Source: Camellia lanceoleosa (lineage: Eukaryota; Streptophyta; Magnoliopsida; Ericales; Theaceae). Taken from it: DNA of 64,000 nucleotides. The notes below the pieces were generated by a model. The model was not told the origin of the DNA and ran no database searches. It saw nothing but the letters and a program-made list of their open reading frames with translations. The stretch's first letter is position 1. Each line of letters begins with the position of its first letter. The DNA is taken from the NCBI GenBank assembly GCA_025200525.1, contig CM045758.1:59553649-59617648 (forward strand). The letters are read 5' to 3'. The position numbers and the translations under genes are program-made. Positions 987 to 54,100 of the stretch are shown here, in pieces.

Positions 987-991
987 AGATT

Positions 992-6898: not shown

Positions 6899-6905
6899 GG
6901 GGGAG
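6897..6905 (+). promoter_or_regulatory. Polypurine tract of inner copia
   Basis: GAGGGGGAG abuts the first base of the 3' LTR at 6906, where plus-strand synthesis is expected to be primed. Confidence 0.85.
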
Positions 6906-7046: not shown

Positions 7047-7051
7047 AGATT

Positions 7052-26207: not shown

Positions 26208-26533
26208 CTGAATTAAGTATACTGTACGCAAAATTGAAGCTGAATTCTAACCTACTGATGATATCACATAAAAAGTTAATAATTCAAATTAGAATCAAAT
26301 GAGTATCGAAAAAGAGTAGAGATAGATTACCCAGAGGAGTTTTTATCAGATGAGTCGGAATCAATAGAAGGAGCAAATGAAGAACCCTCGGGGTCAAACG
26401 CCATGGATGGCCATATGTGTTTGGATCTCAACTTTACTTGAATAAATCTCGAGTTCTTCGACCGTGGCGAATTGCGCTGTAAGAGTGGCGTCACAGGGTA
26501 TGAAACCGCCAATATTCGACCTGAACAAACCAT
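20822..26533 (-). CDS. OR: ORANGE protein (plastid DnaJ-type zinc-finger protein), complete, 8 exons
   Basis: Exons in transcript order: 26533-26331, 25989-25875, 25117-25001, 24814-24728, 22983-22907, 22484-22357, 21560-21424, 20899-20822. The total is 942 nt, 313 aa, with all junctions GT-AG and phases consistent. The N-terminus (MVCSGRILAVSYP, rich in S, R and K) fits a transit peptide. Then come the conserved CIIEGPETVQDF block, a basic stretch NIRSRRNK (residues 92-99), two hydrophobic membrane segments (exon 4 and exon 6) and four CxxCxGxG-type repeats at the C-terminus (CKYCLGTG, CARCSSSG, CSNCSGSG, CPTCLCTG). OR proteins stabilise phytoene synthase and promote chromoplast formation and carotenoid storage. 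The length is normal and no defect was seen. A downstream ATG (residue 44, MAFDPEGSS) is less likely because it would remove the transit peptide. Confidence 0.96.
22985..24727. other. Long fourth intron of OR with a GC-richer unclassified patch
   Basis: This 1.7-kb intron is AT-rich except for about 23265-23505, where GGCCAAGC, TAGCCCAACCC and CAAGCCAACCC motifs cluster. The patch looks like a degenerate repeat fragment, but no ends or target duplication could be defined. Confidence 0.4.
26168..26205. repeat. Poly(A) tract in OR intron 1
   Basis: A long, nearly uninterrupted A run on the + strand inside the first OR intron. No target duplication was found, so it is not called a retroposon tail. 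Confidence 0.7.
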
Positions 26534-26590: not shown

Positions 26591-26926
26591 AAACGCTTAG
26601 CTCTGTGTATGTCTTCAATGGGATGGGATGTAGAAGAGAAGGAAGAGAGAAGTTGTTTAGCAGTGGAGTGGAGACAAGAAGGAGTATCTTGTTTTAGAGG
26701 GCGATCAGGGCGGCACGGATCTTTCTCCTCCGACTCTGGTGGTGCCCAAAATAATTATCAGGTGGTCGCCACGTGTTTGGATGCTATTTGCCTTTGTGTT
26801 TTTTTAACTGTTCTCTCCTCTTATACTCCGCTGTGTGCTTGCAATCATTTTTTATTTTTTTTGATGGGACGATGTTTGCAATCATTTAGGGGTTGGTTTG
26901 GAAACGGGAGGCTTTTTTCAAATTAA

Positions 26927-27155
26927 AGACTCGTTTGGGAACAGGTTAATTTAGTAATTTTTTGACTATTTAATTAAAAAGTAAGTAAAATAAATTTATA
27001 TGTTTGGGATGATTTTTTTAACTAATTACGAAAAGATGTGCAAAAAGTAGAGAGAAAAAAGAATCTTTGACTTTTTGGTATAAGTGATTGGCTTTTTGGT
27101 TAATTTAGTAACTTTTTGACTAATTAGCTAATTTAGTCAGTCCCCAAACGGGGCC
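26927..27155. mobile_element. Tourist-like (PIF/Harbinger) MITE in the MULE left TIR
   Basis: A 229-bp element with imperfect TIRs (AGACTCGTTTGGG at the left; complement of the right end GGCCCCGTTTGGG). It is flanked by TAA on both sides (26924-26926 and 27156-27158), the PIF/Harbinger duplication. The interior is AT-rich and non-coding. Removing it restores the MULE arm match (AAATTAA-GTCGATTTTG against AAACTGAGCCGATTTTG). Confidence 0.82.
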
Positions 27156-27208
27156 TAAGTCGATTTTGTATGGTATTTTTTAAATTAGGTTTATTTTTGA
27201 TGAATATA

Positions 27209-28975
27209 TCTATATATTAAAGAAAATGGTCTTTTAAAACTCAAAATTTGTGAAAGTTTCAACATGTCAATCCTAATTTCTTGATTTTTTAATATTTTTT
27301 TTTAAAAAAATTAACTTAGTGATTGGTTCAAAGATTGTAATAATTACACTATTGATTACAATAAACACTTAATTGATAATATTTACACTTATTAAATGAA
27401 TAACGCAATAAATAAAATCCTAATTTTCTTACTTTTTGTATCCCTAAGAGACCCATGTAATTATTGTGTAAATGTCTCTTTAATAAATAAATAAACACTT
27501 ATTAAATTCTTTCAAACTCTTCGGTCAAACCCCATGTATTTAATTTATATATTATGTAATTATTGTGTAAATGCCTCTTAAATAAATAAATAAACACTTA
27601 TTAAATTCTTTCAAACTCCTCGGTCAAACTCCATGTATTTAATTTATATATTAAAAAATCCTAATTTCCTATTTTTTAATATTTTTTTAAAAAAAAATTG
27701 ACTTGGTGATTGGTTTAAAGATTGTAATAATTACACTATTGATTACAATAAACACTTAATTTATAATAATTACACTTATTAAATGAATAACGCAATAAAT
27801 GAAATCCTAATTTCCTTACTTTTTGCATCCTCAAGAGACCCATGTAATTATTATGTAAATGTCTCTTAAATAAATAAATAAACACTTATTAAATTCTTTC
27901 AAACTCCTCGATCAAACTCCATGTATTTAATTTATATATTAAAAAAAATAAAAACAAATATAAATATTTATAATTATCCCGTGCATTGACTTGGTGATTG
28001 GTGATTAGTTCAAAGATTGTAATAATTACACTATTGATTACAATAAACACTTAATTGATAATAATTACACTTATTAAATGAATAACGCAATAAATGAAAT
28101 CCTAATTTTCTTATTTTTTGTATCCCCAAGAGACCCATGTAATTATTGTGTAAATGCCTCTTAAATAAATAAATAAACACTTATTAAATTCTTTCAAACT
28201 CTTCGGTCAAACCCCATGTATTTAATTTATATATTATGTAATTATTGTGTAAATGCCTCTTAAATAAATAAATAAACATTTATTAAATTCTTTCAAACTC
28301 CTCGGTCAAACCCCATGTATTTAATTTATATATTAAAAAATCCTAATTTCCTGATTTTTTAATATTTTTTTTAAAAAAAATTGACTTAGTGATTGGTGAT
28401 TGGTTCAAAGATTGTAATAATTACACTATTGATTACAATAAACACTTAATTTATAATAATTACACTTATTAAATGAATAACGCAATAAATGAAATCCTAA
28501 TTTCCTTACTTTTTCATCCCCAAGAGACCCATGTAATTATTGTGTAAATGCCTCTTAAATAAATAAATAAACACTTATTAAATTCTTTCAAACTCCTCGG
28601 TCAAACTCCATGTATTTAATTTATATATTAAAAAAAATGAAAACAAATATAAATATCTATAATTATCCCGTGCATAGATTGGTTCAAAGATTGTAATAAT
28701 TACACTATTGATTACAATAAACACTTAATTTATAATAATTACACTTATTAAATGAATAACGCAATAAATGAAATCCTAATTTCCTCACTTTTTTGCATCC
28801 CAAAGAGACCCATGTAATTATTGTGTAAATGCCTCTTAAATAAATAAATAAACACTTCTTAAATTCTTTCAAACTCCTCGGTCAAACCCCATGTATTTAA
28901 TTTATATATTAAAAAAAATGAAAACAAATATAAATATCTATAATTATCCTGTGCATAGCACGGGTGATAGGCTAG
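27209..28975 (+). mobile_element. Non-autonomous Helitron with internal tandem units
   Basis: It begins TCTATATATTAAAG after an A and ends CTAG before a T (28972-28975). Just before the end is a hairpin (CCTGTGC-ATA-GCACGGG) placed as in plant Helitrons. There is no target duplication and no TIR. The interior is built from five copies of a block starting GATTGGTTCAAAG at about 27321, 27707, 28003, 28398 and 28677. Spacings alternate long and short (about 386, 296, 395, 279), giving a higher-order unit of about 680 bp. Partial Helitron 3'-end motifs (ATTATCCCGTGCAT) recur inside at about 27974 and 28660. No Rep/helicase gene is present. Confidence 0.82.
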
Positions 28976-28984
28976 TTTTTTAAA

Positions 28985-29335
28985 TTAAGCTAAAGTGTTA
29001 TTATAAATCACGCTTTTACTGTTAGGAGGCAAAAATTTGATGTACAGTAAAATCACTATTCCAAATCGCGAATTTAATTAGGAAAACGCTATTCTGAATA
29101 GCGCTTCTTACATCAAATTTTTTTCTGATATAAAACGTTATTTCAACAAGCGATTTTGTATAAAACGCTATTCCAAATAGCGCTTTATTTGTGCATTGCT
29201 TTTGGGAATAAAACACTATTCGAAATAGCGATTTTATTGTGCATTTGGTTTGTGAAGAAAACACTATTCGTAATAGCGATTTCACTGCTCATTTGATTTG
29301 TGAAGAAAACGCTATTCTAAATAGCGTTTACACTG
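28985..29335. repeat. Inner part of MULE left TIR with tandem dyads
   Basis: This is the complement of 43135-43450. It contains about eight copies of a 17-nt dyad of the form CGCTATT-n3-AATAGCG (several degenerate). The last four are about 50 bp apart (about 29163, 29213, 29264, 29309). The regular array suggests binding sites for the transposase or a host factor; this is inference. Confidence 0.85.
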
Positions 29336-29384
29336 CCACCGTCCATTTCTTCCTTGGTAAGCAGATTATTGTTTAACATTTTAT

Positions 29385-30094
29385 TTTTTTTTCTGTTGTC
29401 ATTGTTTTGGTGATAATGTAATTCATAAAATTTTGGTGGCTTTACCAAAGCCATTGTCATGTTAAAATTTGTTGTTTTTTTCTTTTGTTTTTGTTTTGGT
29501 TTAGATGGTGTAATTCAAAAATTTTACATAATATGATAAAAACCTCTTTTCGTATATTTATTTTACATAATATTTTTCATATATATAATTTTAAAATCAT
29601 ATTCATTTAGATATTATTAAGCCAATTATGTTCATTTACAAAAGTCATGGTTTTATTGTTCACTATTGTAAACATGGATTGAAACCACACTTTAACTGTT
29701 CATTTAAATTATATTTAATTTTTTTGTAAATATTATTTTTCTGTTGTCATTGTTTCGGTGATAATGTTATTCATAAATTTTCTTTGGCTTTACTGAAGCC
29801 GTTCTCATGTTAAATTTTTGATTTTCTCTTTTGTCTTTGTTTCGGTTTAGAAAATGTAATTCAAAAATTTTTTTAGTCTTTACTAAAGCTGTTTTCGTGT
29901 AAATTTTTTTTGTTTATTGTTTTGTGTTTGTTTTGGGTAAAAGGTGATAATGTAATTAATAATTTTTTTTTTTTTTGCTTTACTAAAGTCGTTTTTCATG
30001 TAAATTTTTTTTTTTTTTTTTTTTGTTGTCTTTGTTTTGAGTTAGAAGGTGTTATTCAGAAAATAATTTTGACTTCACGAAAGCCGTTTTCATT

Positions 30095-30129
<35 letters not shown>

Positions 30130-30180
30130 CCTTTTGTCTTTGTTTTGGGTTAGAATGTGAGAACGTAATTCAGAAAATAC
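29385..30180. repeat. Degenerate tandem array, about 90-bp unit, MULE subterminal region
   Basis: A unit containing TTTGTTTTGG, GATAATGTAATTCA, a T-run and CTTTACTAAAGCCG recurs at about 29402, 29490, 29750, 29838, 29928, 30030 and 30135. Copies are loosely conserved and interrupted by long T and TA runs. No coding potential. Confidence 0.65.
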
Positions 30181-30361
30181 AATACATAAACATAACAGTT
30201 AGACAGACAAACACGTAATTCATGACCTAATATTGCATATTAATAGCCGCAACATTTGACAGACACAATACATAAACATAACATAACAGTTATACTTACT
30301 CTAACACAGACATTACATATTAATGCATGACCTAATATTGCCGAAGTGTAGACATTAACAC

Positions 30362-30961
30362 CTAATTCGCACTTAAATCGACAGGTGGCTCAAAGTCTGA
30401 ACAATCTGAAAGCTTAGCGTCAGAGACAAGCTCGGGATCCTCCATGATAGCTGCAACATTTGGTTCTGTTCTGTTCTTCTGTGCATCCTTCTTAACTATG
30501 TATAGCTGCATATCGCGAGCTAACCTACGGCGCATTTGAGAAATCTCACGTTGTAGTCTTTCACATAGTCGATCAACATTATCAGGATCTTCCTTTTGGA
30601 TCTCAACAGAACGTGCTTTTGGCACCTTCAGTCGATTTTCTCAACATAATCTTTCCATTTGCACTCGCTCTATAAATAGTGCGGGCCACTTCAGAAGTCT
30701 AGCATTTGCTAAACCATATCCTGTTTGATTATCTGATGGGTCCTCCACCAAACCACATGGATCTCGATAGTACTTGGGCATGACAAAATGTCACTTCCCA
30801 AACCTATCATGATAAGCATAAGAGGCATCTAACAAAAGAAATGGTGTTTCATCTTCAACCTCGCCACTTCCCCTTCCCCCTCCTCGTCGTGAACTGTCAC
30901 CCCTTTGGAAGTTCCTACCACCTCTGCGATTCCCACTCCCTCCCATGAACCATGCAGACAT
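30362..30961 (-). pseudogene. MULE accessory ORF A (unrecognised), two in-frame TGA stops
   Basis: Reading from ATG 30961 to a stop at 30362, a 199-residue frame stays in phase except for TGA codons at 57 (30791-30793) and 107 (30641-30643). The N-terminus is rich in G, R and S (residues 7-33, RGG-type). Then come a central part with MPKYYRDPCG and GYGLANARLLKW, a basic helical segment (EISQMRRRLARDMQL) likely to form a coiled coil, and an acidic tail (SDCSDFEPP). No family is recognised. It lies near the left end of the MULE in the same orientation as the transposase. It may be an accessory MULE protein or a captured host fragment. It resembles ORF B at 33832-34269 in layout. Confidence 0.5.
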
Positions 30962-31090
30962 GCTAATTTTTTAAAACAAATGAATGATAATTTCGTAGGG
31001 CGAAATGAGTTATAAGGTTGTGTCTTCACCTTTAGTCGTTTATATAGTTGGTTATGAACGGCTTTAAGAAGATGCCTCTGCATGACAATC

Positions 31091-32130
31091 CCACATATAC
31101 GAATAAGGTATGAGTTGTCACTAGAATGAAAAAACAGAGTAAAGCAAATACTGTGTACCAAGTCAGATGATTTGACAATCCATCTGCATATACCGACAAA
31201 GCAAGGGCATGCTCACTATAAGGTAAATCAGTGAATTCACTATTGCTATGTGAGTTTCTGAATTGAGAATCCCACATATATCAATAAGAGATGAGTTGTC
31301 ACTGTAATAAAAAAAAAGCAAAAAATCGAGAAAACCAAAGCCTGTGCACCAAGTCACATGACTTGACAATCCATCTGCATATACGGACAAAATAAGGGTA
31401 TGCTCATCAGAAGGTAAATCGTGAATTCATCATTTGCCATGTGACTTTCTGAATTGAGAATCCCACATATATCAAGTAGAGATGAGTTGTCACTGTAATA
31501 AAAAAATCGAGCAAAAAATCGAGAAAACGAAAGCCTGTGCACTAAGTCAGATGACTTAACAATCCATCTGCATATACGGAGAAAATAAGGACATGCTCAC
31601 TGTAAGGTAAATCAGTGAATTCACTGTTGCCATGTGAGTTTCTGAATTGAGAATCCCACATATATCAATAAGAGATGAGTTGTCACTGTAATAAAAAAAA
31701 CAAGCAAAAAATCGAGAAAACCAAAGCCTGTGCACCAAGTCACATGACTTGACAATCCATCTGCATATACGGACAAAATAAGGGCATGCTCATTGTAAGG
31801 TAAATCAGTGAATTCACTGTTGCCATGTGACTTTCTGAATTGAGAATCCTACATATATCAAGTAGAGATGAGTTGTCACTGTAATAAAAAAATCGAGTAA
31901 AAAATCGAGAAAACTAAAGCCTGTGCACCAAGTCAGATGACTTGACAATCCATCTGCATATACGGAGAAAATAAGGGCATGCTCACTGTAAGGTAAATCA
32001 GTGAATTCACTGTTGTCATGTGAGTTCCTGAATTGAGACTCCCACATATATCAATAAGAGATGAGTTGTTACCGTGTATCAAATAATCGAGCAAAATATG
32101 AACAAAACCAAAGCCTGTGCACCAGGTGAC
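31091..32130. repeat. Tandem array, about 190-bp unit, about 5.5 copies (in MULE)
   Basis: The motif CCACATATATCAATAAG or close variants, followed by ATGAGTTGTCAC, recurs at about 31091, 31271, 31465, 31659, 31849 and 32042, with spacings of 180-194 bp. Each unit also contains ATCGAGAAAAC and ATCCATCTGCATATACGGA. Short open frames on the minus strand repeat with the unit and are not genes. Confidence 0.88.
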
Positions 32131-32689
32131 ATGACTTCACAATGACAAGTCTCTTCACGATTTGACTACTCAATGTTTGAAAAAATGAAGCTTATGTAGG
32201 CAATGTTGTGTTTCACTTAGCTATGCATCATTCGTTGTTACAACGTACTATTTCTATCAACGGGAAAAGTATGACTATTTGAATTTTTGTTGTCATTTGG
32301 AATTATTTTAAAATCAACTTTTGAATATTCGATTTGTAATATTTTGGGAAACATTTACAATCTCAACTTTTGAAATCAACTTAAAAATAATGGTGGATAT
32401 CATGGTGCCTTCAAATCTGTCTTGAAAACTGGTGCATTCAAATCTGTCTGGAAAACTGGTGTTACACAATAATTTCGGAAGTGTTGTTCTCTTTGGGTAT
32501 AAATCCGAAAATTAACAAATCAGCGTCATCAGAACTGATTAAAATTCTAGTTTCTATACGAAGAGAATCGTCAATTTCTTGAAAAATGTACAGAAAACAA
32601 TCTGTTTGGGTATAATTCTTCAGATTAGTGATTCATCCCAACCAAATCAAGTAAAACCAATTGGGTTGTAAACTTAGTCCCCCAAGTGG

Positions 32690-33620
32690 ACCAACCACTT
32701 GGGTTTGAACTTGTTTGTCCAGCCCCAGAAGTTTAGTTTTCTGTCAACCCCCCATTCATTACCCGAGGCATCATTTGTACTAGACTTACAAGAATTGGAA
32801 GGTGACTCTTTCTTCTTTCCTGATGGAGATTGAAATTCTTTACGTAGAGGATCCCTATTTCAGCAGTCCCAGTTAAGGGAAGCTTTTCACCGAGTTAACT
32901 GTTCTGTTTTATGTGTTATTGAAGGCGGTAGTTTGTTTGTCTGAATTTTATTAGTCCCCCAACTGGACCAACCACTTGGTTTTCAGATTGTTTGTCCAGC
33001 CCCCGAAGTTTACTTTCATGTCAACCCCCCATTCTTTACCAGAGTCATCATTTTTACTGGACTTCTAGGAATTAGAATGCGACTCTTTCTTCTTTCCTGA
33101 TGGATATTGAAATTCTTTACGTAGAGGATCCGTATTTGACGAGGCCCAGTTACGGGAAGCTTTTCACCGACCTATCTTTTCTGTTTTATGTGTTATTGAA
33201 GGCGGTAGTGCGTTTCACCGAGTTTAGTTTTCTATCAACCCCTCATTCATTACCAGAGTCATCATTTTTATTGGACTTTCAGGAATTGGAAGGTGACTCT
33301 TTCTTCTTTCCTGAGAGAGATTGAAATTCTTTGTAAATTGATCCTTATTTTAGCAGCTGCAGTTACAGGAAGCTTTTCACCGACCTATCTTTTCTATTTT
33401 ATGTGTTATTGAAGGCGGTAGTTCGTTTCGCCGAGTTTAGTTTTCTGTCAACCCCTCATTCATTACCAGCGTCATCATTTTTATTGGACTTTCAGGAATT
33501 GGAAGGTGACTCTTTCTTCTTTCCTAATGGAGATTGAAATTCTTTGTAAATTGATCCCTATTTCAGCAGCCCCAGTTAAGGGAAGTTTTTCACCGAGCCA
33601 CCTGTTCTGTTTTATGTGTT
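32690..33620. repeat. Tandem array, about 210-280-bp unit, 4 copies (in MULE)
   Basis: Blocks containing TTTTCTGTCAACCCC, GGTGACTCTTTCTTCTTTCC and GAAGCTTTTCACCGA recur with starts near 32731, 33008, 33219 and 33438. The first two copies carry an extra segment (TCCCCCAA-TGGACCAACCAC) absent from the last two, so unit length varies. No coding content is supported. Confidence 0.85.
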
Positions 33621-33831
33621 TGAACTCATTGCAATTCAATAAAGAAAGTCATGAACTAATAACTGTAAATTACTATAAATGTAGTTATTTCATAAACTTC
33701 AGGTTCATAAACCAAATACTTGAAATACATCCGTACGTCAGATGAACAACAACATTGTCTTACACTCCAGTAACAAACATACGACACAACGTACATACAA
33801 ACATATATGACAGATAACGGTATTTGATTTC

Positions 33832-34269
33832 TTATTCCTCATCTGACATGTAGTAGTCAGAGAGATATTTTTCATTGTTTAAGACATTATTTCGCTCAGT
33901 CACTGTTAAATCTCTGTTGCTTGCTTCTGCCATTTCGGTGGCTAGCTGAAGCATGAAATGTCGACATCTCCGTATCAACATTCTGTTGTTCTCTTTCTTA
34001 ATTCTGCTAACTGCTTTTTCATAGTCACTCACATTTCGTCTAGCCATGGTCAATGAACGACGATGAGGTACCGGTGTCCCAAAGTTACATAGATCATTAT
34101 ATAATCCTTCTTGCTCCGTTACCCTGAACGCCCATTCTGCTCAGATACCAGCATAATAATCCTTCGGACTCGAGTACTTTTCGCTCTTGTAGTCATAGGT
34201 AAATGGAGGTAGCAGCCACACTTTCAGATTTCTTTGCCGGCGTGAACTTCCTGCACTTCTTGAAGACAT
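33832..34269 (-). pseudogene. MULE accessory ORF B (unrecognised), one in-frame TGA
   Basis: From ATG 34269 to the stop at 33832 the frame is 145 residues long, with a single TGA at codon 43 (34141-34143). Order: a basic, serine/arginine-rich N-terminus (MSSRSAGSSRRQRN), a PPFTYDY and SSPKDYY segment, a helical basic region (RIKKENNRMLIRRCRHFMLQL) that may form a coiled coil, and an acidic end (YYMSDEE). No known family is recognised. The layout parallels ORF A (PK-YY motif, then an RR-rich helix ending in MLQL or DMQL, then an acidic tail), which suggests two related accessory genes in this MULE. Confidence 0.5.
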
Positions 34270-34900
34270 TGTTGATAAAATTAAAAAATTAATAATAATG
34301 GTAATTGTAGATATATTACTATTGTTATGACTTCAAGAAACATCATACTGGGGTATTTATAGACATCATAGTGAGGGTTAACTACAGATGATCTGGTGAC
34401 GATAATGCGTGGTAGGGCACTATGGAACAAGTTATACACGTGATATTATTTTATGTTATTCATTTCATGTAATTTTGAGTACCTGTGACTTTGTGTACCT
34501 GTGATGTAGTCACGGATGTGGTTGTCAGATAAAATTGCTCGGATTGTAGGCCAGAGAATCACAATGCAATCCCTTTATATTCGAGCATTGAGTTGTCAAA
34601 TAAAACAAAATGCAGTGAGTTGTCACATCGCCACATGAAACTATTTTGTCATGCTTACTTTTGTACTACAGTAAGTAGTCATTTGGAATTTACGATTTCA
34701 GTACATATTGGTGTTTTAAAAAAATTATAAATGAAATCAAAAAATGTAACAACGGCTTTAATTTTCTTTGTTTTAAAGTAATATTGTTCATAAACGACTA
34801 TGAAACAGAGTGCAAGTAAATACACAACTGTCCAATTCAGTTCGACCTACAACACTATCGTTGTTTTTTTCACCAAAATAATAAAATGGTCACCTCATAT
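34270..34900. other. MULE spacer, no feature recognised
   Basis: AT-rich sequence between ORF B and the plant-mobile-domain-like fragment. No conserved frame or repeat was seen. Confidence 0.4.
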
Positions 34901-34904
34901 GTAA

Positions 34905-35155
34905 ACACGATTGGAACTTTGCTCCCACAGGCCGGAATCTCCCCGCCGGCATGCCAACATGGTGCGTGCCTGGTCTTGCATAACAGAATGAGTAGTTAAA
35001 ATTTTAGCATTATCACGTAATATAAAACAAAATGCAGGGTATTTTCATTGTAAGCGTAAAATCCAACAAACGTTATTGCATACCGGATCGTCCCATATAC
35101 TGTCAGCCTGATGTGGCTGACTCAAAAGTGGGACCTCATCAGGTAGATGTGCCAT
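34905..35155 (-). pseudogene. Possible plant mobile domain (PMD)-like fragment in MULE
   Basis: From ATG 35155 a short frame (MAHLPDEVPLLSQPHQ, then SIWDDP) ends at a plausible splice donor (GTATGC after 35084). Downstream on the minus strand near 34975-34920 another frame reads ACRRGDSGLWE. PMD (MAIN/MAIL-type) proteins often begin with an H-x-SE-x-IW segment followed by a CRRR-x-W segment, and such genes are frequently carried by MULEs. The two pieces are not in the same phase with the simplest splice, and nothing more of the domain is visible, so this is a weak call. Confidence 0.3.
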
Positions 35156-35159
35156 GAAG

Positions 35160-35985
35160 TCTGTACAGTTGACAAACAAATACATTTTTAAAAACTGTAT
35201 TGGTGAGCATGTAATTTAACTATAACAATTAAACTCAAATTATTCTGTACATGACGACTTGAAAAACAAATGTGGTCCATTATTTTAAAAGTATCAATTT
35301 GTGTGCCATTAACATGAAAGCAATTCACTAAAATCTAAATTTTGCATATTATGTGCGATTAAATATGATAACCAATTCAACAGAACCTATCGTTATCTAT
35401 GCTGTAACTAATATAGAAATCTTTTACAAAATCATTTTACGGTCTTAGTTACATAAGCTTAATAATGACTAGTAACATGTGGATAGTTTTCGTACATAAG
35501 TACATGCGAAAAAAATGGAATGAGAATTTTTTTTCCAAACCTTCATTATTGATTTTGGCATATTTGACAAAATTTCATTATTGATTTTGGCATATTTAAC
35601 AAAACTTCATTACATTTATGGCATATTTGACAAAACTTTATTATTGATTTTGTAATGTTTTTTTTTGTCAATAAAGTATCAAATTTGTAAATTACGTACA
35701 TCTAATTCAGAAATTGTAAATGTACAAAATGCTTGCATCAGTCGAAATATTAAAATCTTCAAATGGTAGAAGAACTATGTGATTTTAACTAAAATTTGGT
35801 AATAGACATTTTCAATCAAGTACAGAATAAAAAAACATAGGCCTATGTGGTATAGTTAAATGTTTTTGCATTGTCATTTAGTTTAATTTATTTGTTTAGT
35901 ATGTTAGTTGTAAATTTTGTCAAGGACCTGTCTTCATAGTCTTCATCGACCAAGTTGCGCCGGACATGTTCGCCTGTCATGACCT
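35160..35985. other. MULE spacer with a short imperfect repeat
   Basis: AT-rich spacer. At 35540-35660 the motif TTCATTATTGATTTTGGCAT or variants plus ATTTGACAAAACTT repeats about three to four times. Nothing else was recognised. Confidence 0.45.
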
Positions 35986-35990
35986 GTCTG

Positions 35991-38869
35991 CTAGCACTCA
36001 CTGCAACGAGCGGTCAAACGCCTATCTGATATGTCCATCTCATTCAGAATACGAGACATAGATGTACGACCCCGTTTTACTTCTCGCAGACGCAGTACAT
36101 TAGACATTAAGGTCCACTGCGGATCAGCCCAATAATCTTGATGCGGTATTGGATTGAATTTAGTTTCCGAAACCCTCATGTATACAGGAAGCTTATATAC
36201 TAGATCAACATATTCGAATGGATTGTCCCCGCATTCAGACATTACAGCGAGCATATGAGAACATGGATAGTGTCGTATCTCATATTTCCTACAACTGCAC
36301 GTGGGTTGATTCATCCGCACAATTTGTGTTGATTCATCCGCACAATTTGTGTATTGTGACCTCGTCCATGGCGAAAAGATGTTTGCACCTCAAATACGCG
36401 GTGTGGCCTAATAGAAAATTGTAATAAAAACTAATCAAGTTCATGTTTTTAGGTGTACTTAAGTTGACAACATAATAACAACAATTTAGTTTATATTACA
36501 AACTAACCTGTCATATGAGATCAACCTGAAAGTATTTGCCCTTGCGATGTTATCCTCAATAGTTTTTTGCATCTCTCTAGGGTATTGGAACTCATTTCGT
36601 ACATCTATTTCAGCTTGGGCTCCCATTTCGTCAAAATATTTTACGAGCCGCCGAAATGTGAATTCAACCATAGCTGAGATAGGTAAGTTCCTTGCACCTT
36701 TCAAGACGCTATTGAAGCACTCTGCATCATTGCTGGTCAATACCCCCCACCGATGTCCACCGTCATACGAAAGGGCCCACTCCTCAGGATTCATCTTGTA
36801 AACCCAATTGATGGCTTCTTGGTCAATAGCCTGTATTTGTTGTAAGTAACCATTACACTTCCGTCGTTGATGAGCACTCCCTACTTTCCATAGAAGTTGT
36901 TTCAGCTCCTTATTTTTGAACTTAGTGTTAAAATTACTACAAACATGACGAAGGCAGTGCCGATGATATCCAACAAATTGGAGCGAGGGATTTAGCCAAT
37001 GCCGCCTCACAGCAGCTAAAATACTCTCAGCTCGATAAGATATCAAAGTCACTCCCTGTCGGTCCATGACAATATGTTCCTTGATATTTAAAATGAAGAA
37101 CGACCAAGACTCCAAACTCTCCCTGTCGACAACAGCGAATACAAGCGGTAATATTTTCCCATTGGCAGTGACAATTGTTGCTACAAGCAACACACCAGTG
37201 TATTTCCCGTATAAGAATGTACCATCAATGGTTATAACAGGCCTACAATGTCTGAATCCATCGATGACGGGTTTGAAAGACTAGAAAACAAAGTGGAATA
37301 CGGGCATAATGGTTGTATTTCCGGTATATCTATGCTTCCATTGCACGATGGTGCCAGGATTAGATGTTTGTAATGCATACATGAATTTAGGTAACATCTT
37401 ATATGATTCATCCCAATCCCCGAATACCATTTTAATTGCCTTTGCCCTTGCATGCCACGCCTTCTTGTATGATATACTATAGTTCATGGTCTTTTTTATA
37501 TCTTCGATGACATTCTTAATGGGCATATTAGGTTCATTCTGCATACGACAATACCTATGAGTCAGATTATTATTGTGTGAACACTTTAAACAAACAAATA
37601 TGTATATAAATGTAAAAATTTATTTTTTATACTCACCGCAACTTGTCCCAAAAGATGAGAAGCAATGTAACTGGAGCTAATATTTGTGTGGTCCCTGTTC
37701 ATTCGTGGGTATAAACAATGGTGAGGACCCCAGTACTGCTTTATTTCAAAAAGACCATGTATCCTACTAAGAGATGCACGCAACCACCATCTACAATCGT
37801 GCTTGCAAGCACACACCCAAACGTCTTGCTTGGAGGTTACGACTTTATACTCTCGATTATTTGTTGCATGGTACAATTTCACAGCATGTACGAGTTGCTT
37901 CTTATCAACGAAAACCATCCCTTTGTCCAACTCTGGGTTTTCAGCATTCCAGATTCGGTTACGGGGAACAACATTGCGGTTACTAATGTCAAAATCACCA
38001 CCCGTGTGAATGTTGTCATAGAAAGGGATTTCAGGTCTAGGTGGAATGGGGGCATCCTGAATATCAACAGGAGCGTCGGCATCATCTTCTTCATCATCAT
38101 CATCGTCTGATCCGTCCAATAAATTTTCTTCATCACACATTTCATCCTCATCATTGTCTAGGGCGACATCAGGACCGTACATGTCACTGTCAGGAAACTG
38201 CATAGAATTAACCGTTTCAGCCATATTACCAGCAACTTCAACTGGAGTGGTATGATGGCTGTAGGTGGGCACATCTTCGGTGTCATTGTGAAATTCAGTC
38301 TCGTATCCACCACGTGAACTTGATTCTCCACCATGGCCATGAAATGGCTGTTGTGTGTAGCCAGCTGCGTAACATTCATTTGATTCATACATAGGAGATT
38401 GAAACGCTATCGTGTCAATCCCATGCGTCAGCAAGTTAGTGAACGGATGAGGATCCATCTGTGTTATATTCGGAAGATTGTGTACAACCTCTTTCTCAAT
38501 GTACACTTTCAAACAATTTGGTGGTTGGAAACTTCCACCGATACTTAATACGGTGTTCAACGCCTCATCGTCATTTATCGGTAATATTTTGTATTTGCTG
38601 GTTGCTTGCCACTGGCGATAAGGATATCTACATTTGAAGATTAATCGGACTGCTTCCCCGTAACTTGCCACCTTGTGCATAAACATCTACTCCAAATTGA
38701 CAAGCGTGGTGCCAAGTTGCACCCCATATATCCCTTTCGGCTCAGCATCATATGACACACCTTCATCAGGATCCCGAATTATATTTCCCCCCAGTAGAAG
38801 ATAATTGGAATAGTTGCCATATACTTGCTTCAATGAAACAATAAACATTAAAATATCAACAATATACAT
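35991..38869 (-). pseudogene. MURA-type MULE transposase, disrupted
   Basis: Pieces in transcript order: 38869-37637, 37538-36508, about 36400-35991. The N-terminal part has a YLLLGG-NIIRD segment and a PB1-like region (FKCRYPYRQW). An acidic stretch (DDDDDEEDD) precedes a WRKY/GCM1-like zinc finger of the Mutator DNA-binding type (CACKHDCRWW to HHC). The catalytic core has ITIDGTFLYGKY (first Asp) and a TSNDAECFNSVL segment. The C-terminal SWIM finger is CSCRKYEIRHYPCSH. Defects: TAG at 38687-38689; TAG at 37281-37283 where a Trp is usual; LISYRAE, where this family normally has Asp, so Tyr replaces the probable second catalytic residue; and a 23-bp tandem duplication (36306-36351) that shifts frame before the SWIM finger. 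A MULE transposase would cut and paste the element at its TIRs; this copy cannot. Confidence 0.92.
36306..36351. repeat. 23-bp perfect tandem duplication in the transposase
   Basis: TTGATTCATCCGCACAATTT plus GTG occurs twice back to back (36306-36328 and 36329-36351). The length is not a multiple of 3, so it frameshifts the region just before the SWIM zinc finger. Confidence 0.95.
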
Positions 38870-38889
38870 ATATCGAATTCTAATTATAA

Positions 38890-39560
38890 AATAAACATTA
38901 AAAGAAGAACAATAAATTTTCCAGAAGTCACATTTATATCATAACTGGCATTTTCCTATCAAAATCAACCCTCTCATTTTTTGTCAATTTATATTTTCCG
39001 GGGTTGAAGGAACTATAGAGGTGAAACATTAATTCAATTTATATTTTGTCAGCTGTATATTTGTGTCTCAATGTGATTATTACTATTTATTTTCTCATTT
39101 TTCTCACTTATTTTTATTCGTATAAAACAACAGCTGAGATTTCATCTGTACGTGGAGTTTTGTAGATAATTAAATATTTCTAAGGTTGAGTTGAAAGAAC
39201 GCGATTGATTTGGACAATATAAAATAGAGGTTGCAAACATTGTTATTAATTTTTTAAAAATGGTGATCCAATTCTTCAGATTTATGGACAATATAAGTTA
39301 ATTTGATTTGCTCAAACTTGTGCCATTAAGGACCTTAATGACAAAGTTATTTCTATGTGAACTAGTAACCCTCGTCTACTTTGTAGAGGTCATAGAGAGA
39401 ATTAAAACAAAAAGCTCATTTAGGATCGTTCTGAAAAGTAAGAAAAAAAATTTAATTTATTAACTCCTTTTTTTTCTTAAACATATAAAAACAAAAAAAA
39501 TTATTAGAGAGATAATTTATAATGGCCAAAAATTAGAGAGAATTAAATTGAAGTTGGTGG
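38890..39560. other. MULE spacer, no gene seen
   Basis: AT-rich DNA between the transposase 5' end and the 460-bp array. It may include 5' untranslated or intronic sequence of the transposase transcript. Confidence 0.4.
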
Positions 39561-39565
39561 TTAAA

Positions 39566-41404
39566 TATATGGACTAAATTTTGGATAGTTATCCATGTGA
39601 AGCTATGGGGCCATCCGTACCAATTATTTGGTATTACGAAACGCAGGCTTACCCATCAAAGTGCGATTTTTTTTTTTTTTCCCTTCTTACCTACGAATTT
39701 GCTATGGATTATTAATTAAAATAGTTTAAGACTCTTTTCATGCATATACTATAACTAGTCTAATAATGACTTCTAATTATATAAATAAAATTAAAAATTA
39801 TTAAAACATAATGTTTAGATTTTCCTTTTCAATGGTGGTGGACAGTCACAAAGCGGAAGTGGCGATAAGTCACTTCGTTCAATACCCATTTCAAAAACTT
39901 TTTCAGATTTTCTTCAGTTGTCTGAGGAAATTTTAATTTGTACTATAATGCTATTATATGTATTACAAATTCAGCTCATTAAATTTTTTAATCATATTCT
40001 AGGTCCCTATCCCCAAATATAGTGAAATATGGACTAAATTTTGGATAGTTATCCATGTGAATCTATGGGGCCATTCGTACCAATTATTTGGTATTACGAA
40101 ACGCAGGCTTACCCATCAAAGTGCGATTTTTTTTTTTCCTTCTTACCTACGAAATTGCTATGGACTATTAATTAAAATTATTTAAGACTCTTTTCATGCA
40201 TATACTATAACTAGTCTAATAATGACTTCTAATTATATAAATAAAATTAAAAATTATTAAAACATAATGTTTAGATTTTCCTTTTCAATGGTTGTGGACA
40301 GTCACAAAGTGGAAGTGGCGATAAGTCACTTCGTTTAATACCCATTTCAAAAACTTTTTCAGATTTTCTTAAGTTGTCTGAGGAAATTTAAATTTGTACT
40401 ATAATGCTATTATATGTATTACAAATTCAGCTCATTAAATTTTTTAATCATATTCCGGGTCCCTGTCCCCAAATATAGTGAAATATGGACTAAATTTTGA
40501 ATAATTATCCATGAGTCATCGATGGGGCCATCCGTACCAATTATTTGGTATTACGAAATGCAGGCTTACCTATGAAAGTGCGATTTTTTTTTTCTTTTCT
40601 TTCTTATCTACGAAATTGCTATGGACTATTAATTAAAATAGTTTAAGACTCTTTTCATGCATATACTATAACTAGTCTAATAATGACTTCTAATTATCTG
40701 AATTGAAAATTAAAAATTATTAAAACATAATGTTTAGATTTTCCTTTTCAATGGTAGTGGACAGTCACAAAGCGGAAGTGGCGATAAGTCACTTCGTTCA
40801 ATACCCATTTCAAAAACTTTTTCAGATTTTCTTAAGTTGTCTGAGGAAATTTAAATTTGTACTATAATGCTATTATATGTATTACAAATTCAGTTCATTA
40901 AATTTTTTAATCATATTCTGGGTCCCTGTCCCCAAATATAGTGAAATATGGACTAAATTTTGGATAATTATCTATGAGTCATCTATGGGGCCATCCGTAC
41001 CAATTATTTGGTATTACGAAACGCAGGCTTACCCATGAAAGTGCGATTTTTTTTTTCTTTTCTTTCTTACCTACGAAATTGCTATGGACTATTAATTAAA
41101 ATAGTTTAAGACTCTTTTCATGCATATACTATAACTAGTCTAATAATGACTTCTAATTATCTGAATTGAAAATTAAAAATTATTAAAACATAATGTTTAG
41201 ATTTTCCTTTTCAATTGTAGTGGACAGTCACAAAGCGGAAATGGCGATAAGTCACTTCGTTCAATACCCATTTCAAAAACTTTTTCAAATTTTCGTAAGT
41301 TTTCTGAGGAAATTTTAATTTGTACTATAATTCTATTATATGTATTACAAATTCAGCTCATTAAATTTTTTAATCATATTCTAGGTGCTGACCCCAAATA
41401 TAGT
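39566..41404. repeat. Tandem array, about 460-bp unit, 4 copies (in MULE)
   Basis: Copies start with ATATGGACTAAATTTTG or close variants at about 39566, 40027, 40483 and 40945, each 456-462 bp long and highly similar. Units carry GGGGCCATCCGTACCAATTA, ATGCATATACTATAACTAG and GTGGCGATAAGTCACTTCG. They hold no open frame. High similarity suggests recent amplification or homogenisation relative to the decayed transposase. Confidence 0.93.
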
Positions 41405-42890
41405 GAAATAAACCAAACGAAATTAAACCAAAATTTTTTTTATTTAAATAAAATAGAGTGAAAATTAGACAACATTATATTTTCATTTATTATTTTGAAG
41501 TCAATAAAAATATTTAATTTGAATAAAATAGAGTCAAAATTAAATATTTGAGAGAACATGATCTTTTCATTTATTATTTTGAAGTAAATACAAATATTTT
41601 TTTTAATAAAATACATTCAAAATTAAATATTTTTTTTAAATAATTACATTTAGTAGAAATTAGACATTTTGATTCAAAAAATATAGACATTAACAATTTC
41701 TGAAGCATAATTTGATTAAAAAAATATTGACATTTTGATTCACAAGCATAATTTTAAAATTTCAATTTCTGATTTCAAATTTCAAAATATAGACATTTCA
41801 TAATTCCAATTCAACAATTCTCAATTACATGAATTTCGTAATATGACATTAACAATTATGAATTATATGAATTTCACTTTTTTTAATTTTATTCTTAATT
41901 AAACAAAATTACTTTTCAAACCCAAATTTCAAACCCTAATTTCCTTTTAATTCCTCTTAACAAGCAAAAAAAAAAAAAAAAAAAAAAAAAACTCACAAGC
42001 ATAATTTCAAAATTCCAATTTTTGATTTCAAATTTCAAAATATAGACATTTCATAATTTCAATTCAACAATTCTCAATTACATGAATTTCATAATATGAC
42101 ATTAACAATTATCAATTATATGAATTTCGGATTTTTTAATCACAATTCTTAATTAAAGAAAATTACTTTTAAAACCCTAATTTCCTTTTAATTCCTCTTA
42201 ACAAGCAAAAAAAAAAAAAAAACAATTTCCAATTCAACAAATATAAGTTGGTTTATTCAAAATTCAAAATATAGACATTTTGATTCACAAGCATAATTTC
42301 AAAATTCAAAATATAAACATTTCATAATTGCAATTCTCAATTCTCAAATCTCAATTATATCAATTTCATAATATGACATTAACATATTTATGATTTATGA
42401 ATTTATGAATTTCATAATTCCAATTTTCAATTCTCAATTCTCATATTTATGATTTATTTAAAAAATTCAAAAAAATTTAAAAATTCCAAACCTGATTTAT
42501 GATTCAAAAGCATAAAGATTCACAAGCTTTAGCACCCTTAATAATGTGAACCCTAAAATGTCATCCTAAAAGGATGTGTGAACAATCGATCAACAATTAT
42601 CATTAGAACCCTAATTTCAAAACCACACTGATAAAGCATAAAAAATCCAAACCCAAATATTCAATTCACAAGCAACATTCAAAAATTCAAAAACATAAAA
42701 AATTCCACAAATTCAACGATTTCCAAACCCTGATTTCGGATTTCAAAAAATTCTAAACCCTAATTTCATAACCTCACTGATAAAATCCTAATTCACATAT
42801 AAAACCCTAACATTCACAGCAAATTAAAACACATTCACATTTTCACAAACACAAAAAATAAATTCATAAAATTAGGGTTAACTGTCATAC
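41405..42890. repeat. AT-rich region with local duplications (in MULE)
   Basis: Runs such as AGACATTTTGATTCA, CACAAGCATAATTT and CCCTAATTTCCTTTTAATTC recur two to three times (for example 41935, 42175), with poly(A) tracts at about 41968 and 42210. No coding potential. Confidence 0.6.
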
Positions 42891-43065
42891 CACGGAGAGA
42901 GAGAGAGAGAGAGCAGAGACGGAGAGTGAGAGCAGAGAGCAGAGGGAGAGCGAGAGCGACAGTGAGCCAAAGCAGAGCGAGATTGAGTGAGTCTGAGAGC
43001 AGAGGGAGATGGAGAGTGAGAGTGAGAGATGGAGAGTGAGAGATGGAGTTTGAGATAGATGGATC
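42891..43065 (-). promoter_or_regulatory. GA-rich transcribed leader region next to MULE right TIR
   Basis: The + strand is GAGAG/GAGTGAGA-rich, so the minus strand is CT-rich. It lies about 30-200 bases downstream of a minus-strand TATA box and upstream of the transposase, consistent with a pyrimidine-rich 5' leader (inference). Confidence 0.4.
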
Positions 43066-43124
43066 GAGGAAGAGACGAAAAAATAAGTGTAAAAAACGTG
43101 AATGCAAATGAGGGGGGGGCTTCG

Positions 43125-43132
43125 TATTTATA
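43125..43132 (-). promoter_or_regulatory. Candidate TATA box of the MULE transposase promoter
   Basis: The minus strand reads TATAAATA, just inside the right TIR and pointing toward the transposase. Terminal promoters are usual in MULEs. Confidence 0.5.
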
Positions 43133-43134
43133 AG

Positions 43135-43523
43135 ACCGTTAAAAACGCTAATTGAAAAAGCGTTTTCATTTAGTTACAGTAAAGTCGCTATTTGGAATAG
43201 CGTTTTCTTCATAAATGAAATGCACAGTAAAGTCGCTATTTGAAATAGCGTTTTCTTCACAAACCTTCACCCCAAATTAAGCGCTATTTGAAATAGCGTT
43301 TTATATCGGAAAAAAATTTGATGTAAGAAGCGCTATTCATAATAGCGTTTTCCTAATTAAATTCGCGATTTGGAATAACGATTTTACTGTACATCAAATT
43401 TTTGCCTCCTAACAGTAAAAGCGCGATTTGTAATAGCGCTTTAGCTTAGTTTGGGAATTCCATCAAAAGTAGGCCTAGTTTGGAAAATACCATGCAAAAT
43501 CGGCTCAGTTTGGGAAAAGCCTC
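43135..43523. repeat. MULE right TIR (about 390 bp)
   Basis: Inverted match to the left arm after removal of two insertions there. It contains about seven 17-nt dyads (for example CGCTATTTGAAATAGCG near 43230 and 43281) and ends at 43523 next to the TGGAAACGG duplication. Confidence 0.9.
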
Positions 43524-43719
43524 TGGAAACGGGGTTTGTTTTTTTATTTTATTTTATTCTATTTTACTTTATTTTATTTTATTTTTATTTTTTTATTTTT
43601 TTGACTTTTTTAAGTTATTTTAGCTTGGGTTAAAAAGTTTGGTTTGAGAATATTTTTTGATTTTTTGAATTTTTTGACTTTTTTTGTAAGAAAAGAGTGT
43701 AATGATTATGGGTTGGATG

Positions 43720-49800: not shown

Positions 49801-51175
49801 TTACACAGAGGGAAGTAGTTATTGACCCTCATATACTCACCAAACCACCTCTCGGCACACCAAGCTACCCAGGTCGGTGGATTTGCGATCAATTTTAGAG
49901 AAACGGGCACAAGGAAGAGAAGACGCCTAGGCCCATGACGCTTAAAGGATCTCAGCTCTATAGCATTTGGCACCTAGGACGTACGAAAGCGTCGAGGTTA
50001 GGATGCTAGTATCGTGCCTTGCCTATAAACCAGCCGATAAGGAATTGACAAGGTTGTAGAGCTCGTCGTTCGTTCCGGCGATAAAGAACACACCACTGCC
50101 CTTAGGCTTCAACCAATCTAAGTTCACGATCTACGGCGGGAAGTCAGATCCTTACATGTATTTAAGCTACTTTCGCCAAGTTATGGCCATACACTAGCGA
50201 AACGAGACTCTAATGTGCATCATATTTCTATCTAGCCTTGGAGATTTGGGCTTAACTTGGTTTGAAAAGTTTCCAGAATACAGCATTGCCTCCTAGGCAC
50301 AACTTGCAGAGGCATTTGTTACCAAGTTCAAGACAAACACCAAGATGCCAGTTAAAATAGATCATTTCCTCACCATCAACATGGGCGAGAAAGAAACATT
50401 GAAGTCTTACAACAACAGATATTGGGAGAGTTTCAACCAGATAGGTGATTGCCCCACTAACCTAACTATCGTGCAGTACAAGCGGGGTTTGCCAGTGGGC
50501 TATAAGTTAAGATATTCAATAACAATGACGCCACCCCTCACGATAGAAGCCCTAATGGAGAGAGTGCACCAGCACATCAAGGTAGATGAAGATGGCGCTT
50601 GCGCCAAAGTAAAGTTTGGCACAACAGTGATGTCGAACAAGAAACCTGCAGGAAAGGTTAATATGATTGGAAAGAAGGGCTAACCTAACAACAACAATCA
50701 TGGTGCACCGCCCAATGATGAAGACGCCAAGGCAAGGAGGTTGATGGTCCACACTACCATTATGACTGTTTTCAAGAAGCCCATCTAGTGAACTCTTAGT
50801 GAAATACACAATGAACCCTTCGTTCGGCGACCTGCCAAGTTGGAAGAAGCATAGAGGCGCTATGACGAGAGGTATAGGTTCATCTTTCATAATGAAGTAG
50901 GGCACCAAATCAAAGATTATACGTCTTTAAGGCAACATTTGAAAGAATTAGTGGCAGCTGGCCACTTAGATTGATACATTGAAGGGAAAGTTCGGTCTAC
51001 CCCTCAAGATCGCAATGCGGCAAACGGGATGTTGGCAGATGGTCTGCCTCAAGGCGTGATCAATGTGATTCATAGGATCATAGAACCTAAGCGAGTTTGT
51101 GAGCTCAAAGGAGTGATCAAAAAAGTGGAACACATGAGGAAAGTACTGAGTGTTCAACCGATCATAAAGAAAGGG
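46802..51175 (+). pseudogene. Tat Gag, split by a solo LTR
   Basis: The frame opens at ATG 46802 (MAHNKDLPQSAANG, with DLPFVPPMADLDLQ) and meets a stop at 47009. It is interrupted by the LTR at 47262-49779. Gag resumes by about 50085, with recognisable KSDPYMYLSYFRQ, SSLGDLGLTWFEKFPEY-like and MGEKETLKSYNNRYW segments (50345-50683), the last being the conserved Tat capsid region. TAG and TAA codons recur, and the C-terminal part to about 51175 is poorly preserved. Gag forms the virus-like particle; this copy cannot. Confidence 0.75.
47262..49779 (-). mobile_element. Probable solo LTR (2518 bp) inside Tat gag
   Basis: Begins TGTCACGTCCCGG and ends AGTGTTACA, a TG...CA structure flanked by a perfect 5-bp duplication GAGAA (47257-47261 and 49780-49784). 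It holds no coding domain and no internal LTR-LTR repeat, so a solo LTR from recombination is the simplest reading. Long LTRs with a GGGACGTGACA-type end fit chromovirus (Tekay-like) gypsy elements. The strand is inferred from that end only. Inside, CACGGAAATTTCGTCCGTGG and ATGGAAATTTCATCCGCGGG (48036-48145) form an imperfect local repeat. Confidence 0.78.
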
Positions 51176-54100
51176 AAGACAGAAGCAAATAACGTTATTA
51201 CTTTCTTTGACAGAGACTTAGTAAGGTTCCAAAGTCCTCACAACAACGCGCTAGTTGTTACTTTGCGCATCAAAAACTTTGATATTAAGAGGATCTTGAT
51301 AGATTAAGGAAGCTCGTACGAGATAACATACTATGAGACCTTTAAACAATTAAAATTGGAGGATAAAGACTTGACACCAGTGACTTCTCCATTGGTCGGC
51401 TTTAACTAGATGCCAGAGTGGCCAGTTGGCAAGATAATTTTGCTGGTCAAAACTAGATCGATGACAAAACAAGTGGAGTTCTGGGTGTTGAAAGTTCTCT
51501 TCACTTACAACATCATTTTGGGAAAAGCATGGTTGTACACCATACGAGCTATAGCATTGATGCACTTCCCAAACGAAGCTAGAGTAATTGAAGAAGTCCT
51601 GGGAGACCAAATCATGACCAAGCAATGCTTCGTGACCATGAACGATAGCCGAGCTACCAAAGGATTCATACAGATAATAGAAAAATCGGAGAGCAAAGAG
51701 ATGTTCGCAAACGTCGGTAAGGCAGCCGAACAGAAAGCGGTGGAAGATCTGGTGGAAAAATCGATGAGAACAACCCAGAGAAAGTTCATCTTTGTCCAGC
51801 ACTAAGAGAAAATAGATCATGGAATTTTTGATCTCTAATATTGAAGTGTTTACTTGGACGCCGTACGACATACCTTGCATTGACTCGAACTTCATATGCT
51901 ATCAACTTAATGTCAATCCTACCGCCAGACCAATTATACAACGAACTCGCAAGTCAGCATTACATTACGCCGAGATAGTGGCTGAAGAAATGGAAAACCT
52001 GCTAGAAGTAGAGGCAATCAGAGAAGCTCATTATCTTAAGTGGATTTCCAACACAGTGGTAGTGCCCAAGAAAAATGGCAAATGACGCATTTGTGTAGAC
52101 TACAAAACAATCAACAAAGCATGCCCAAAAGATGGCTTTCCTCTACCAAGGATAGACCAACTGGTGGACCTAACTGCATACCACAACCGACTTAGCTTTC
52201 TTGATGTGTATCGTGGATACCATCAAATTGTTATATATGAACTAGATCAGGAGGTCACATCTTTCATAACTCCAAAGGGGTTGTACTGTTACAAGGTCAT
52301 GCTCTTTGGTTTAAAAAATACAAGGGCAACGTTTCAGCAAATGGCCACCAAAATGTTCAAACCATTGTTAAGCAAAACAATAGAGGCTTACATTGACGAC
52401 ATGGTAGTCAAAAGTAAGAATGAAGTAGACCATCTCAACGACCTAACTGAGATGTTTCAAATTTTGAAGACCCACAAGCTGCGACTAAACGCTACCAAGT
52501 GTGCATTTGACATGGGGTCAGGCAAGTTCCTTAGCTTTTTAGTGACCAACTGCAGTATAGAAGCAGATCTTTACAAAATTAAGGTTGTTCAAGAGCTCAA
52601 AAGGCCTAACACGATCAAGGAATTGCAGCACTTGACAAGCCTAGTTGTCACACTAAATCGATTCATAAGTCGATCGTCAGGCAGATGTCGACCATTCTTC
52701 CGGGCGCTAAAAGCAAAATTTGAGTGGGATAAAGACTGTGATCGAGCTCTAGAGAGGTTAAAGGCATACTCGACCTCTCTGCCATTGTTAGCGACCTTGT
52801 GCCTGGAGAGGAACTTTACCTATACTTAGTGGTTTCCCATCATATAGTAGCACAGTGTTGGTGCGCGCAAAAGGAGTACTGTAAGAACCTAAATTTTTTG
52901 ACAACTAATTAGTTTGTTAATCATAATATTAAGTTAATTCATAGTGATTATTAAATTATTATGTTAATAGCATCATGATTACTACCAATTTAAAATTCCT
53001 TTAAATAAAATTATTTATTTTTTTGTGATTAAATTTTTATATCTAAACACAATTGTGGACACTAAATGAGTTAAATAAATAATAATCAAGTTGGTTAGAG
53101 GATAGAAGGGAGAGAAAAAAAAAAAACATCTAGTGACTAGGATATATATACATTGATTTTCATTTTGAACACAAAAAAAAAAAAATAGAAGTCAGATTTG
53201 TTGTTTTGGGCAGAACATTTCGGCTGCCCTTCTTCCCAATAAAGCTGCCGTCAAGGCATGCCATGGCATGCAAACATACTCTAAGTCTATTCTTGTAGAT
53301 GATAGTTCCCAAGCCAAGAAAAAAGTAATAAAATAAAAAATAAAATAAAATGAAAATAAAGATTGCCTCCAAGCTCCAATATATAGTGCACTATTCACCC
53401 CTTTTCATTTCTACGGCCGAGGAAAAGAAAAGGAGAGGAAGAGTAGAAAAGAAAAGAAAAGAGAGGAAGAAGAAAGGGTCCTTGGTGTTTACCAATTCAA
53501 AACAAGTTTTGAGAATTGTTTGTAAAAGCTCTTGAGGGAGGAATACTCAACCTCTATTCTCCTTTAGATATTTTTCTTAACTGAATCTACATATTAAAAA
53601 TATGTAAGAGTATGCATTGTTAATACACAATAGCTCAATGCATGTTTACATTTTGATAGAATGATAATCTTATGATTATATGATTTCTATCCTTCTTACA
53701 AGCATGGATTAGAGGGTTTAGCTACTGATTTTTCTTCTTATGTGTTCAAATATTCTCCATTGTTTGAAATATCTTGCATGTTTATGAATTTGTATTCACT
53801 CTTCATAAATATTATTTTCATCTATTCCCTGTTCCCACTAATGAAAGCAAATATGAAGGATTAGAGTTTCACATGGGAATAGTAGCAAGAAATAATTTTT
53901 ATAGTTTTGCGTATGATTCGCGGTGAATACAAAGTGTATTTTTCACAAAATAATGAACTTCCAGCAAAACAGATTTTTAATCCATTTTGAATAAACCCAA
54001 ACAAACTCATGAGAACACTTTCATAAAATCTGAAACTACTGGAGTTAGTTTAACATGTTTTCATGGTGCTAAAATATTGAAAAAATTATTTGACAATGTT

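Follow-up and report, generated by a model that had tools for sequence, protein, structure and literature searches.

The window analysed here, which is the whole stretch of 64,000 nucleotides of Camellia lanceoleosa DNA, contains a MULE of 16.6 kb (positions 26908-43523) with TIRs of about 350 bp, flanked by a 9-bp target-site duplication, TGGAAACGG, whose left (26899-26907) and right (43524-43532) copies are identical and are the only plus-strand matches to this sequence in the window. The right TIR lies at 43176-43523. Piecewise alignment to it recovered the left TIR (26908-29240) as three pieces (26908-26922, 27155-27205 and 28982-29240) that match the right one in order over about 350 bp; the inner 174 bp of the two TIRs are 93% complementary. 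The left TIR is split by two nested insertions (26923-27154 and 27206-28981): the first, of 232 bp, has inverted ends and looks MITE-like by eye, and the second, of 1.8 kb, consists mostly of tandem repeats of 99, 281, 295 and 394 bp. Outside the element, inspection by eye pointed to what may be the initial coding exon of a host gene (26337-26404, minus strand), at about 0.5 kb from the end of the MULE, to frames like those of a Ty1/copia retrotransposon (64-9857) and to Ty3-like retrotransposon frames (50297-57998).

Exons of a MURA transposase occupy 35991-38686 on the minus strand and comprise a SWIM region (35991-36320), a MULE domain (36486-37193) and an N-terminal ORF (37586-38686). Two Pfam domains scored above their cut-offs (PF10551, E 4.4e-9; PF04434, E 7.1e-10), PF03108 (DBD_Tnp_Mut) reached 20.2 bits in the N-terminal ORF, under its cut-off of 25, and the N-terminus upstream of 38686 is not in one open frame. 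The element is a MULE, since it combines a MULE-type transposase domain, a SWIM zinc finger, long TIRs and a 9-bp target-site duplication. The interval from the N-terminus of MURA to the right TIR contains a 463-bp tandem array (39567-41410; 4.0 units, 95% matches).

Two broken frames downstream of MURA

MURA is upstream of two frames on its own strand, which we call B (33832-34269, minus strand) and A (30362-30961, minus strand). The original prediction had given both as open reading frames on the transposase strand; the coordinates and the strand were correct, but each frame is interrupted in the window by in-frame TGA codons, at codons 57 and 107 in A and at codon 43 in B. Codon 57 of A is CGA in all 15 other genomic copies found, codon 107 is CGG in 10 of 14 (AGG, CAG, CGA and TGG were each found once), and codon 43 of B is CGA in 13 of 16 (with two TGA and one AGA). 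Given these codons, C:G to T:A transitions could account for the stops in the window, as would be expected of a methylated, silenced element.

Both frames do have the described layout, namely a basic start rich in R, G and S, a PK-YY motif (MPKYY in A, SPKDYY in B), an arginine-rich stretch (ending in DMQL in A and in FMLQL in B) and an acidic tail. The PK-YY motif, however, does not mark a shared position, as MAFFT places NQTGYGL of A, and not MPKYY, opposite SPKDYYAG of B.

Linkage to MURA and a third relative, C

Linkage was studied in one genome, that of Camellia (3.0 Gb searched). From 150 scored MURA hits we took the first 20 copies that had no inside stop, leaving out the window's own copy, and read 10 kb downstream of each (15 kb for 12 of them). 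On the MURA strand, B was found downstream in 17 of these 20 copies and A in 16, and the order was MURA, B, A in all 15 copies that had both. Within the stretch read, both ORFs were missing from L009 and L028, B from L019, and A from L023 and L026; L009 has a B match 16 kb downstream of MURA, and the A match of L025 is partial.

A pairwise count based on 150 scored hits from each of the MURA, B and A genome searches (4005, 1571 and 1755 first-look candidates, respectively), which includes the element of the window and overlaps in part with the 20 fully read copies, gave the same picture. Among pairs no more than 15 kb apart, B was downstream of MURA and on its strand in 49 of 49 cases; the same held for A relative to B in 53 of 55 and for A relative to MURA in 43 of 44, where 0.23 would be expected at random for each pair type. 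In a single same-strand case A preceded its B, and opposite-strand pairs within 30 kb numbered two for MURA-B, three for B-A and two for MURA-A. Predicted proteins had given a first sign of this shared context: gene models P0103 and P0126 contain B followed by A in one protein, and P0201 and P0202 contain the MURA SWIM region followed by A. The idea that A and B are accessory ORFs of a MULE, for which co-occurrence with related MULEs had been named as a check, is thus borne out by strong linkage in many copies, and we are nearly certain of the identity of the two ORFs and of their association with MURA.

We also found a third ORF in the same elements, C, first seen as a weak opposite-strand match to B in L016 and L026 and coding for 170 residues. 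It was present in 17 of the 20 MURA copies, antisense in all 17 and open in 9, and in the 16 C-bearing copies with B in the stretch read it lay between B and a plant mobile domain (PMD) ORF. The latter was identified in L026 through its match to PF10536 (E 1.1e-29); matches to it of at least 50 residues occurred in 18 of the 20 copies (the L026 ORF being the query). The fuller layout, put together across copies and not claimed for any single one, is MURA (forward), PMD (forward), C (reverse), B (forward), A (forward) and TIR. What the window retains of the PMD ORF is its first 22 residues (34916-34981, minus strand; 82% in tblastn over this length). When the window copy is aligned to L010 and L022, a deletion junction falls near 34920, and relative to L022 about 4.4 kb is missing, a deletion that took the rest of the PMD ORF together with C. 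PMD and C are likewise absent between MURA and B in L025 (L025:2386-3260); its junction is unlike that of the window, which makes the two deletions look like separate events.

Kinship of A, B and C

At E<=1 we found 89 protein homologues of B, the named ones coming from Camellia sinensis, C. fascicularis, Rhododendron griersonianum, R. simsii, Vaccinium darrowii, Quercus lobata and Q. suber, and 112 of A, of which the named ones are all from Camellia. Each ORF has many open homologues, and the closest protein relatives of both are in Camellia. One B homologue, P0214 (127 residues), is on a 39-kb JGI contig, which might reveal such linkage beyond Camellia; among viral contigs there was no confirmed relative of the A, B and C family. 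Neither A nor B had a credible match to a Pfam or PDB family. Among solved structures, none with a DNA-binding function stood out, and the open-access literature yielded no description of a family containing A, B and C. The two ORFs are therefore undescribed, as had been proposed, in the sense that searches of these libraries linked them to no family already described. As far as we have seen in that literature, the presence of three accessory paralogs in one kind of element is also new.

The part common to A and B begins at W92 of A and W46 of B (homologue numbering) and continues nearly ungapped to the acidic tail. Compared directly, the two sequences reached a Smith-Waterman score of 62, matched by one of 2000 shuffles. 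Family profiles were built from 53 of the 112 A proteins and 63 of the 89 B proteins, leaving out short, long or fused ones; three alignments (A1, A2 and A3) contained 19, 27 and 30 chosen proteins. In hhalign, A and B were aligned with a probability of 28 (E 6e-4) using smaller alignments and of 4.4 (E 0.009) using larger ones, and few proteins outscored the best shuffle when tested with the profile of the opposite family (3 of 53 from A, 6 of 63 from B). Such weak direct scores are what one would find if the two accessory ORFs had no common ancestor and resembled each other by chance, as basic helical proteins may.

It is C that makes the relationship firm, because it matches A and B over the same core. 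The hhalign probability was 96.5 for C and B (E 8.5e-10) and 69 for C and A (E 4.4e-5). When the nine open C proteins were scored with the B profile, the median was 35.7 bits and the lowest score 29.3, against 14.5 for the best of 9594 scored shuffles. With the A profile the median was 19.1 bits; the best of 8922 shuffles reached 10.3, so that one C protein, at 9.6, fell under it, a point in favour of coincidence, and reversed C sequences reached at most 7.1 bits, a point against it. We also translated these loci and the window in six frames and scored the resulting 2226 segments with all three profiles: in the band of 8-60 bits there were 26 matches to the A profile, 23 to the B profile and 34 to the C profile, all of them A, B or C frames or pieces of these, and all 26 matches to the A profile were C or B frames.

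Predicted structures, built from separate alignments for A and B, point the same way. The AlphaFold model of B (mean pLDDT 82; 60-70 for the other four models) has helices at 35-63, 71-74, 80-116 and 123-130. That of A (mean pLDDT 51) has helices at 92-111, 118-121, 126-162 and 169-176, among others, and is poor outside the long helix, blocks of which reach a pLDDT of up to 91. The last three of these helices in each model, the tryptophans W46 and W92, and V67 and V113 all correspond at one offset of 46-47 residues, as do the VP..RS motifs, which again argues against coincidence. The three proteins have in common a core of roughly 100 residues, modelled for A and B and read from the sequence for C. 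In its predicted order, a helix starting at or before the tryptophan leads through a short VP..RS turn into an arginine-rich helix of 37 residues, after which come a short helix and the acidic tail. We are highly confident that A, B and C are paralogous and consider a chance resemblance very improbable. The earlier suggestion of a duplicated pair is accordingly right about kinship, which holds through C in spite of the weak direct A-B profile scores, but not about number, as the family has at least three members.

Constraint, candidate targets and proposed role

To quantify selection we used pooled NG86 estimates of dN/dS from open copies only, a choice that favours conserved ones (6 copies of B, 6 and then 20 of A, 9 of C, and 21 of the MURA core including that of the window). 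The estimate was 0.354 (0.19-0.65) for B and 0.351 (0.25-0.51) for the MURA core, meaning that B is as constrained as the core of the transposase, and B is the only one of A, B and C for which constraint is demonstrated. The values for C (0.685; 0.42-1.21) and A (0.782; 0.51-1.37 with 6 copies and 0.806; 0.54-1.25 with 20) were not distinguishable from no selection in the 9 and 20 open copies, respectively, and the two ORFs may be either weakly constrained or fast-evolving.

One explanation for such ORFs is that the MULE once captured a plant gene, of which they are descendants without any function for the element. Capture of host genes is described as frequent in MULEs (PMC6446971), and the lack of clear constraint in A and C would fit. 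B is constrained, however, none of the three ORFs matches a Pfam family, and three divergent paralogs are found at fixed places in many copies. Moreover, no named host gene family was seen among the matches listed (120 of 407 proteins in the B profile search), and a check of the listed homologues for an unrelated host gene produced a single exception, P0235, a Quercus suber model named 40S ribosomal protein S29, in which the B protein comes first and an S29-like part last, and which is probably a fused gene model. We therefore consider capture improbable. The homologue search finds relatives that share short words, such that a distant parent gene could escape it, and the evidence against a recent capture is compatible with a very old one later put to use by the element.

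Several features of the element could serve as targets of a DNA-binding protein. The palindrome CGCTATTNNNAATAGCG occurs in runs of 6 matches at 29054-29326 and 7 matches in the right terminal region (43146-43438), so that the two terminal regions account for every one of the window's 13 matches (allowing up to 2 mismatches; 0.09 expected). Runs of CGCTATTNNNAATAGCG were found in 6 of the 20 other copies; in the remaining 14 they were not found, or the stretch read stopped short of the TIR. Between B and A lie a 213/277-bp tandem array 3' of B (32674-33620) and a 193-bp array of 5.3 units directly 5' of A (31129-32143). As in the window, arrays separated the two ORFs in all 15 other copies that carry both: the period was 193-194 bp in 14 of these, where the number of units ranged from 2.1 to 7.8, L027 had a period of 183 bp, and the 213/277-bp type was seen in 8 of the 15. 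Since MULEs commonly have tandem arrays and repeats in their TIRs, the presence of these is weak evidence of a target. In the proteins themselves, the cores of A, B and C are basic (pI 9.7-11.3) and are followed in the alignment by a short acidic tail.

We propose that A and B are decayed members of an unnamed accessory family in a large, many-copy, PMD-bearing family of Camellia MULEs. The basic cores and the helical hairpin of the models suggest a protein that oligomerises and binds DNA, and the constant linkage, the repeated sites and the small size and basic character of the proteins fit a DNA-binding accessory protein; we give DNA binding by A, B and C an even chance. Its likely targets would be the element's own repeats, i.e., the palindromes in both TIRs and the arrays between B and A, and the bound protein might assist in bringing the ends together or protect the element against silencing, in the manner of TnpA in Spm and VANC in VANDAL21. 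An anti-silencing or end-pairing role, drawn from these analogies, is tentative, and the explanation as a whole, of an unnamed MULE accessory family that binds the element's own repeats to pair ends or counter silencing, is our best one, at somewhat less than even odds. Points that count against it are the selection estimates for A and C, the poor model of A and the lower scores of four of the five B models, the fact that no DNA-binding protein stood out among solved structures, the 14 copies in which palindromes were not seen (in part because reading stopped before the TIR) and linkage evidence that comes from one genome.

VANC of the Arabidopsis VANDAL MULEs is likewise a MULE accessory protein, and VANC21 is reported to bind a motif in tandem repeats of non-coding parts of VANDAL21 and to remove methylation (PMC5735166, PMC10398659); in both kinds of element, the non-coding parts include tandem arrays that differ in unit number from copy to copy. 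VANC carries DUF1985 and DUF287 (PMC5735166), whereas neither domain was detected by hmmscan in 19 B and 27 A proteins (E<=1) or in one C (E<=0.1), and A, B and C, at about 145-200 residues, are much shorter than VANC. TnpA of the CACTA element Spm/En resembles the proposed A, B and C in being an element-encoded DNA-binding protein with repeated motifs near the ends: it is reported to bind subterminal repeats of Spm and to be needed for transposition (PMC2613891), with an activating effect that goes with demethylation (PMC10398659). TnpA belongs to another transposon superfamily, and the analogy is one of role. Our best guess is that the family is VANC- or TnpA-like in role without being a member of either family.

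The main rival to this reading is a MURB-like role, in which A, B or C would aid MURA in cutting, target choice or integration and have nothing to do with silencing. MURB is about 200 residues long. As the second gene of maize MuDR and a proposed helper, MURB parallels our ORFs, and it is reported to be necessary for MuDR insertion (PMC9168764, PMC6446971); the constant linkage to MURA and the strength of constraint on B, equal to that on the MURA core, would suit such a helper. By contrast, mudrB is described as opposite in direction to mudrA (PMC9168764), whereas A and B are on the MURA strand and only C lies opposite, and a transposase helper would leave the arrays between B and A without a role; the likeness is, again, one of description. 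We regard a MURB-type helper as unlikely, if far less so than capture or coincidence, and think a VANC/TnpA-like role the likeliest.

Extra ORFs in MULEs, also beside PMD, have been described before (PMC6446971, PMC9168764). In barley Abermu, MURA is accompanied by ORF2 on the same strand and ORFR in antisense (PMC9168764, PMC6446971), as in our element, where further ORFs lie on the transposase strand and one in antisense; some MULE groups also resemble it in combining a PMD partner with a further ORF (PMC9168764, PMC6446971). These likenesses are again drawn from descriptions, and paralogy among the ORFs of one element is not mentioned in the available parts of those sources (PMC9168764, PMC6446971). 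Transposon PMD proteins have also been suggested to be a means of counter-silencing (PMC8616336).

MULE accessory genes are known, and few of them have a function. Here, a protein family without a Pfam match has been triplicated inside one kind of element and is linked to MURA in many copies, one member of the family, B, is conserved from Camellia to oaks, and concrete proteins and candidate DNA sites are now at hand for asking why large MULEs carry more than a transposase. A more speculative extension, to which we give a small chance, is that one ancestral DNA-binding protein was triplicated within the MULE to form a kit for self-recognition, each paralog binding a different repeat of the element (the TIR palindromes, the 193-bp array beside A and the 213-bp array beside B), which would provide both pairing of the ends and sequence-specific escape from silencing. 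If true, VANC-like anti-silencing would have arisen in MULEs a second time and independently, and B would have taken it into at least two orders of plants.

Finally, Camellia gene models such as P0099, P0102 and P0105 contain pieces of the 193-bp array (31032-32143) as exons ahead of A, and in P0201 and P0202 a piece of this array connects the MURA SWIM region with A, which may be either real splicing or prediction noise.
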